Positions 40,743 through 41,730 of a DNA stretch of 64,000 nucleotides are shown piece by piece (the stretch's first letter is position 1; every line of letters begins with the position of its first letter). The notes beneath the pieces are model-generated. The model was not told where the DNA came from. It did not search any database and worked only from the letters and a program-made list of their open reading frames with translations. The position numbers were made by a program, and so were the translations under genes. Source of the stretch: Hyphomonadaceae bacterium. GTDB lineage: Bacteria; Pseudomonadota; Alphaproteobacteria; Caulobacterales; Hyphomonadaceae. Location of the stretch: the NCBI GenBank assembly GCA_028285145.1, contig JANQQC010000010.1, positions 1 to 64,000 on the forward strand, read 5' to 3'.

Positions 40743-41213
40743 TCAGATGTTCCGGCCGCGCTTAGGTCCGCGATCTCCAAACCACCACAGTGTTGCCGCC
40801 GTCGCCGCAAAGGTCGCGGTCTCGATGATTGCGGCGCGTCCGGCAGAGTCTGCGCCAAGGTAGATTGCCCCTGCAATCGCCCAAAGCAGGACGGTCAAAA
40901 CTGGACGCGTCAGCCCCCGCACAGCGTTCACCCAGTCATAGCTCGCCGCGATTGCAGCATCGGCAGCGATAGACGCCTCCAGTCCCGACCAGCCACCCTG
41001 CACGTCCGCCAATACGATCTCGGCTTCGGTTTCTTCCTGCTGCGCGCGCATCTGCAGCTCAAGTAACCGGCCCTCATGATCCCATCGCGCACGTTCATGA
41101 TCGTGAATCTGGCGACGCTCCACAAAACCAGCCACACGGCCGAGCGCCGTTCCCAGCAAACCAAAAAGGCCTCCGCCCGCAGCGCTTGCCGTCAATCCAA
41201 TCAGGTCCGCCAT
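40743..41213 (-). CDS. Three-helix holin, gene-transfer-agent type
   Basis: The 156-residue protein has one hydrophobic N-terminal segment (about 4-26) and a charged middle helix rich in Glu/Arg/Gln. Two C-terminal membrane helices follow, the last ending A-T-L-W-W-F-G-D-R-G. This is the layout and ending I associate with the 3-TM holins named for gene-transfer-agent release. GGGAG stands nine bases before the ATG. It follows the endolysin gene with a 13-base overlap. Holins open the inner membrane for an endolysin. The family call rests on layout, not a search. Confidence 0.75.
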   Translation of the reverse strand: MADLIGLTASAAGGGLFGLLGTALGRVAGFVERRQIHDHERARWDHEGRLLELQMRAQQEETEAEIVLADVQGGWSGLEASIAADAAIAASYDWVNAVRGLTRPVLTVLLWAIAGAIYLGADSAGRAAIIETATFAATAATLWWFGDRGPKRGRNI

Positions 41214-41626
41214 AATGCTTCGCTCCCTTTGTAGTACCAATGCGCCGCTCGCGATCGGCGATCCATGTGAAGAAAGGTTCGGGCGAGTCCCAAACCCGTG
41301 AAACCGGCCCCACGCGCGGCATCGCGCAGCTCGATCCAGTCGTGACCTGCGAGTGCAATGTCGACCGCGATCTGCTTGTGCCTGGAGAGCGGTGCACCAC
41401 CGATCGCCGCGTTCCAGAGATCGCACCGGTGTCCTGAATTGATAATGAGGGGACGACCGATGCGTGCTCGCACGATCTCGAGGCCATCCAGAAACGATGG
41501 ATCGTGCCAGTACTCACCACCGCAGAAGCGCCCACCGCATCGGCAGGCCAGTTCTGCCGGCTGAAAGTGCGGCCAACGCCAATCGGTGTTCAGGCTGCCT
41601 GTGTCGGTCAACGTCTTGAAGAGCAT
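41201..41626 (-). CDS. M15-type peptidoglycan peptidase (endolysin)
   Basis: The 141-residue protein has the zinc peptidase pattern S-R-H-K-Q-I-A-V-D-I-A (His and Asp ligands near residues 83 and 89) and a later F-L-H-M-D with the third ligand near 119. I-I-N-S-G-H-R-C-D is also typical of M15A enzymes. It would cut cell wall crosslinks. There is no signal peptide, so it would need a holin, which the next gene provides. Three Cys residues cluster near position 29-35. Confidence 0.86.
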   Translation of the reverse strand: MLFKTLTDTGSLNTDWRWPHFQPAELACRCGGRFCGGEYWHDPSFLDGLEIVRARIGRPLIINSGHRCDLWNAAIGGAPLSRHKQIAVDIALAGHDWIELRDAARGAGFTGLGLARTFLHMDRRSRAAHWYYKGSEALWRT

Positions 41627-41690
41627 CCCCGGAGTTTACGTCAGCCGCGAACCCCGTCGGATTGATTCCTAGAAAGCGCTGCTTCCGATA

Positions 41691-41730
41691 AGAAAAACCC
41701 GGGGATAGCGTATCGGCTATCCCCGGGTTT
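41691..41730 (-). terminator. Strong terminator after nitronate monooxygenase
   Basis: A perfect 15-base inverted repeat (41695-41709 and 41716-41730) with a 6-base loop. On the minus strand the stem is followed by a T-run (A-run at 41693-41697), which fits termination of the nitronate monooxygenase transcript that ends 25 bases earlier. The stem is long enough to act in both directions. Confidence 0.93.

Follow-up and report, generated by a model that had tools for sequence, protein, structure and literature searches.

Introduction

GTA particles are known to leave the cell in two ways, in Rhodobacter by an endolysin together with a holin, and in Caulobacter by LypABC with no endolysin. A pair of overlapping genes in a Hyphomonadaceae bacterium raises the question of whether a phage-type lysis cassette lying by itself belongs to an agent of its host. 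The pair lies in the window analysed here, that is, the whole 64,000-nucleotide stretch C11:1-64000, which is the first 64 kb of the 244-kb contig C11. The preliminary description of this DNA had reported an M15 peptidase without a signal peptide, overlapping by 13 bases a protein that ends in W-W-F-G-D-R-G, and the coordinates, the strand, the overlap, the 156-aa length of the second protein and its ending proved correct. It had also proposed that this orphan pair could be the remote lysis module of an endogenous agent. We consider it quite probable from the sequence evidence that the pair is a variant form of GTA lysis cassette which became separated from an ancestral late operon, and that it serves the host's own RcGTA-type agent.

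Results

A conserved pair of a peptidase gene and a membrane-protein gene

The two genes (141 and 156 codons) stand between the flanks that had been described as a MATE exporter and a terminator, and both flanks were confirmed: on the downstream side, only 9 bases separate the pair from the end of a convergent MatE gene, and upstream, a hairpin separates the pair from a nitronate-monooxygenase-like gene (Table 1). A scan for sigma-70 promoters found none.

Table 1. Positions on contig C11 of the predicted lysis pair, its promoter-like element and terminator-like hairpin, and the head-tail cluster.
Feature	Position	Strand	Remarks
156-aa three-helix membrane protein, phrog_6637; predicted to be a holin or a holin-like lysis protein	40743-41213	-	PHROG match, model
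M15_3 (PF08291) peptidase, 141 aa; predicted endolysin, cytosolic	41201-41626	-	Pfam and PHROG profiles
Promoter-like element CAATCCGACGGGGTTCG	41648-41664	-	21 nt ahead of the peptidase ATG
Intrinsic-terminator-like hairpin	41695-41730	-	15-bp perfect stem, then T-rich tail
RcGTA-type head-tail cluster	about 65268-78131	-	Pfam-complete
GTA_TIM	66882-67730		1e-121
Cluster-side copy of the element	78153-78169		CAATCCGACCGGGTTCG before the first cluster gene

The peptidase matches PF08291 well above the cut-off (1.9e-18; 67 bits against 23.2) and two PHROG peptidase/endolysin families (1.1e-23 and 2.5e-21). H83, D89 and H120, read off its sequence, fit SxH...D...HxD, which we take to be the metal-ligand motif of Peptidase_M15_3; with both the profile match and these residues, it can be placed among the Peptidase_M15_3 endolysins. 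No hydrophobic stretch was found at its N-terminus.

Homologues of the 156-aa protein occur in single copy in 29 of 61 relatives, and the peptidase adjoins the gene in 72 of 80 genome_contigs loci; therefore, the pair is not a chance arrangement. The peptidase is absent from five of these 80 loci, in which the membrane-protein gene directly follows a fibre gene, and missing from three more. A DUF2793 gene, whose products have tail-fibre matches in PHROGs, lies upstream in 13 of the 80, before the peptidase in eight and directly before the membrane-protein gene in five; DUF2793 is presumably the domain of the RcGTA tail protein rcc00171.

A complete GTA head-tail cluster on the same contig

The pair had been called an orphan with no capsid or tail genes nearby, which holds within the window but not for the contig, since a Pfam-complete RcGTA-type head-tail cluster lies just beyond the window edge. 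From about 77.7 kb down to about 65.3 kb, its genes encode the terminase, portal, S78 prohead protease, HK97 capsid, connector, tail completion, tail tube, GTA-gp10, tape-measure C-terminus, DUF2460, baseplate hub, NlpC/P60 and g15 proteins, where the g-numbers are assigned on the assumption that the RcGTA gene order applies. The cluster is upstream of the pair on the same contig and strand, with about 24 kb between its end and the peptidase start. The genome thus holds what is expected of a remote GTA lysis cassette of the RcGTA type, namely a GTA head-tail cluster and, outside it at about 24 kb, a predicted endolysin gene adjoining a membrane-protein gene.

Two proteins with no Pfam match were also noted here. 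One (239 aa; C11:78252-78968, L002:18253-18969) has a hydrophobic stretch and is encoded just upstream of the cluster; the other (78 aa; C11:74909-75142, L002:14910-15143) has one hydrophobic stretch, is encoded between portal and protease, and is possibly another membrane partner.

A promoter-like element shared by the cluster and the pair

The same promoter-like element precedes the pair and the first gene of the cluster, and the pattern CAATCCGACNGGGTNCG is matched perfectly at exactly two sites of the 3.23-Mb genome, these two promoters, with 12 matches genome-wide when up to 2 mismatches are allowed. Because this pattern was written from both sites, one-sided tests were used, in which the draws are not independent because the loci are related. 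Of 72 sequences upstream of the peptidase, 15 contained a 13-mer derived from the GTA promoter with at most 3 mismatches; the rates in the three controls were 2.2% (3600 random windows), 1.1% (4320 permuted-pattern tests) and 1.8% (1153 upstreams of other ORFs). In the other direction, the pair-derived 13-mer was found with at most 2 mismatches in 5 of 17 GTA upstreams, one of them that of the host genome itself (G000), versus 2.0% of 2000 random windows. The element is at least 4 mismatches away in 10 of the 17 GTA upstreams, and local similarity of the pair upstream to the GTA upstream of the same genome is clear only in G000 and G016 among 10.

Two other one-mismatch sites in the genome were judged to be chance, one lying inside an ORF, presumably aminotransferase-like, and one beside a gene that we take to be a prolyl isomerase. 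By eye, no copy of the element was seen before the DUF2793 gene of the own genome. EM motif discovery, applied to the GTA upstreams, settled on coding sequence and was not used further. In G008 and G016 (L006, L009), a small hydrophobic protein has its reading frame ahead of the shared element and the peptidase.

In the G000 cluster promoter, AATCCG is followed by CCGGG...CCCGG and then by CTATAA. In our reading, this arrangement would parallel the Caulobacter GTA promoter, described with a -35 of AATCAT and a GafZ palindrome ahead of the -10 (PMC11150451). The GafA protein of R. capsulatus is reported to bind the GTA promoter as well as that of the lysis cassette (PMC6363796). With a common element on the cluster and the cassette, one activator would switch on both.

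Viral relatives suggest an origin of the pair at the end of a late operon

Relatives of the 156-aa protein were found in 14 viral contigs, with an M15 peptidase upstream in 11 by tblastn and g12-g15 homologues in four; the viral scan with the peptidase as query found no relatives. In L166, L173 and L174, the order is g12-g13-g14-g15, followed by the peptidase and the membrane protein, with a DUF2793 fibre gene between g15 and the pair in L173 and L174, while in L171 the two lysis genes are in reversed order. Additionally, contig C27 of G011 carries at 43.7-47.8 kb a second, prophage-like cluster, where a second GTA_TIM gene is followed by a partial DUF2793 gene and an M15_3 gene, in the order g15, DUF2793, M15. 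The viral order and this second cluster suggest that the pair was once the end of a GTA-type late operon and has been displaced.

The 156-aa protein as a candidate holin

The only above-noise match of the 156-aa protein is phrog_6637 (3.4e-10), a family of unknown function. The earlier description as a three-helix protein agrees with its AlphaFold model (helices 3-87, 93-120 and 123-146; mean pLDDT 79.6, pTM 0.32), in which strong hydrophobicity is confined to the middle membrane helix. An ATLWWFGD block is invariant in the alignment of 32 relatives. The closest named relatives of the protein are Hyphomonadaceae, e.g. Henriciella and Hyphomonas. The tblastn search in named phages gave four weak Vibrio matches and nothing else.

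The likeness to the holins named for GTA release, which the preliminary description had seen, was not borne out. PF11351 (GTA_holin_3TM) has no match above its curated cut-off in the 156-aa protein or anywhere in the own genome, the Pfam search of the protein gave PF20596 alone, below cut-off, and homology to PF11351 is unsupported by hhalign (probability 6%). The two share a similar outline, with Arg-Pro ahead of the second membrane helix. PF11351 occurs in three of the 61 relatives, all three with GTA_TIM and without the 156-aa protein. In two GTA-positive genomes without this protein, G039 and G047 (L126, L127), the PF11351 holin directly follows an M15-type endolysin, as the 156-aa protein follows the peptidase, which is possibly an alternative cassette; the endolysin match in L126 is PF13539.

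In L166, a recognised holin (PF16083, 2.8e-9) is encoded separately, beside and upstream of the peptidase, so that the holin may be a protein other than the 156-aa one. It is thus conceivable, if on balance doubtful, that the cassette is GTA-owned and this protein is an antiholin, a spanin-like protein or another membrane partner, with the holin encoded elsewhere; a weak holin match upstream of the peptidase in L173 (0.0041) points the same way, as do the missing PF11351 homology and the absence of any fold match by Foldseek at E <= 0.001. However, no further membrane-protein gene was seen in the host cassette between the terminator and the MatE gene, and the three helices and the position of the protein fit a holin.

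Linked decay of the pair and the cluster

In genera g4 and g6, the genomes that have the 156-aa protein but lack GTA_TIM were inspected for erosion: clusters are partly deleted in eight (G027, G089, G094, G128, G137, G157, G172 and G177), and the terminase is broken in G035 and G029. In the Hyphomonas/Henriciella-type genomes G027, G089, G137, G172 and G177 (L180-L195), the clusters have internal deletions that spared the terminase on one side and the C-terminal part of g15 on the opposite side. Among the 22 GTA_TIM-positive genomes examined (genera g1, g4, g6 and g9), 21 have an intact pair, the lone exception being G019 with a fibre gene in place of the peptidase, versus 5-6 of the 10 eroded ones, where G172 is the uncertain case because an intact pair there needs another start codon; Fisher p is 0.006 to 0.024, uncorrected for kinship. 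The breaks vary, from stop codons (G029) and a deletion fusing both genes (G035) to loss of the peptidase (G089, G177).

This evidence cuts both ways, as decay is linked, yet the pair survives without particles. Being intact in at least 5 of the 10 eroded-cluster genomes, the pair can outlast the agent, which would suit a cassette of GTA origin that has come to act without the agent, in programmed lysis or in the turnover of the cell wall. Such a role would also suit the lack of preferential co-occurrence across the order, where in a 160-genome sample GTA_TIM is present in 30 of 43 genomes with the 156-aa protein versus 89 of 117 without it, so that many GTA-positive lineages must lyse another way. 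We nevertheless hold an agent-independent role to be improbable, given the promoter element common to the pair and the GTA cluster, and given that the pair is broken in four of the 10 eroded genomes, whereas the peptidase is lacking in one of the 22 GTA_TIM genomes.

Synteny and shared inheritance

GTA_TIM is present in 46 of the 61 relatives. In all 26 genomes that carry both genes on one contig, to which this count is confined, the 156-aa protein gene lies downstream of g15 on the same strand, at 26-69 kb in 22 genomes and at 425-544 kb in four. Additionally, distances of the 156-aa protein correlate with those of the GTA terminase (Mantel r 0.72, p 0.0002; 16 genomes), and this co-linear inheritance of the pair with the GTA argues against an active prophage. 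That the pair is a moron or the remnant of a prophage, with no relation to the GTA and nearby by chance, is very improbable: related pairs do exist in phage contigs, but the constant strand and g15 side, the correlated distances and the shared promoter element all stand against it.

Discussion

The complete cluster, the shared element, the synteny, the viral gene order and the linked decay support the earlier proposal of a remote lysis module of an endogenous agent. A genome devoid of GTA or prophage head and tail genes had been named as grounds for rejecting that proposal, and the complete cluster removes this objection. Based on these findings, we propose that the cassette would be the distal end of an ancestral phage late operon, comprising g15, the tail fibre, the endolysin and the membrane protein, whose lysis end would now lie 24 kb downstream of the head-tail cluster with the strand kept. 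A single activator, probably one of the GafA/GafYZ type, would turn on both operons in GTA-producing cells. The 156-aa protein could then open the inner membrane, upon which the leaderless M15 peptidase would reach and cut the cell wall, and the cell would burst and free the particles. Most likely, the cassette would thus act like that of RcGTA, with different proteins.

A broader proposal, which we put forward only as speculative and rather unlikely, is that the Hyphomonadales have a two-operon GTA regulon, wherein the late operon was cut after g15 and the fibre and lysis end came to lie downstream, in most cases by 26-69 kb, behind a copy of the cluster promoter, the phrog_6637 protein would be a new holin family, and the cassette would become a stand-alone programmed-lysis module where the particle genes were lost.

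In the open-licence PMC literature, we found no paper that describes a GTA lysis cassette from Hyphomonadaceae. A phage-type cassette that is conserved in this family and its relatives and has a promoter in common with the GTA would be a second endolysin-based solution to particle release. With it, the change from one release mode to another and the decay order of GTA modules can be tested directly, and phrog_6637 gains a candidate function.

Among known systems, the proposed cassette resembles rcc00555/rcc00556 of RcGTA in R. capsulatus, which has an endolysin beside a membrane protein, remote from the head-tail cluster, with its own promoter and a regulation apparently common with the cluster (PMC3423380, PMC6363796). 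However, the RcGTA pair is a putative lysozyme and a holin, whereas the Hyphomonadaceae pair is an M15_3 peptidase and a phrog_6637 protein, and the distance from cassette to cluster is here short and strand-conserved. CcGTA of Caulobacter crescentus has a homologous structural cluster, but its release is described as proceeding by LypABC and without holin-endolysin genes (PMC13236601), in contrast to the phage-type cassette of the Hyphomonadaceae genome. The lysis modules of the GTA-like phages L166, L173 and L174 share the M15_3 peptidase and the phrog_6637 protein placed after g12-g15; they differ in that they are still inside the late operon, and in that L166 adds the separate PF16083 holin.
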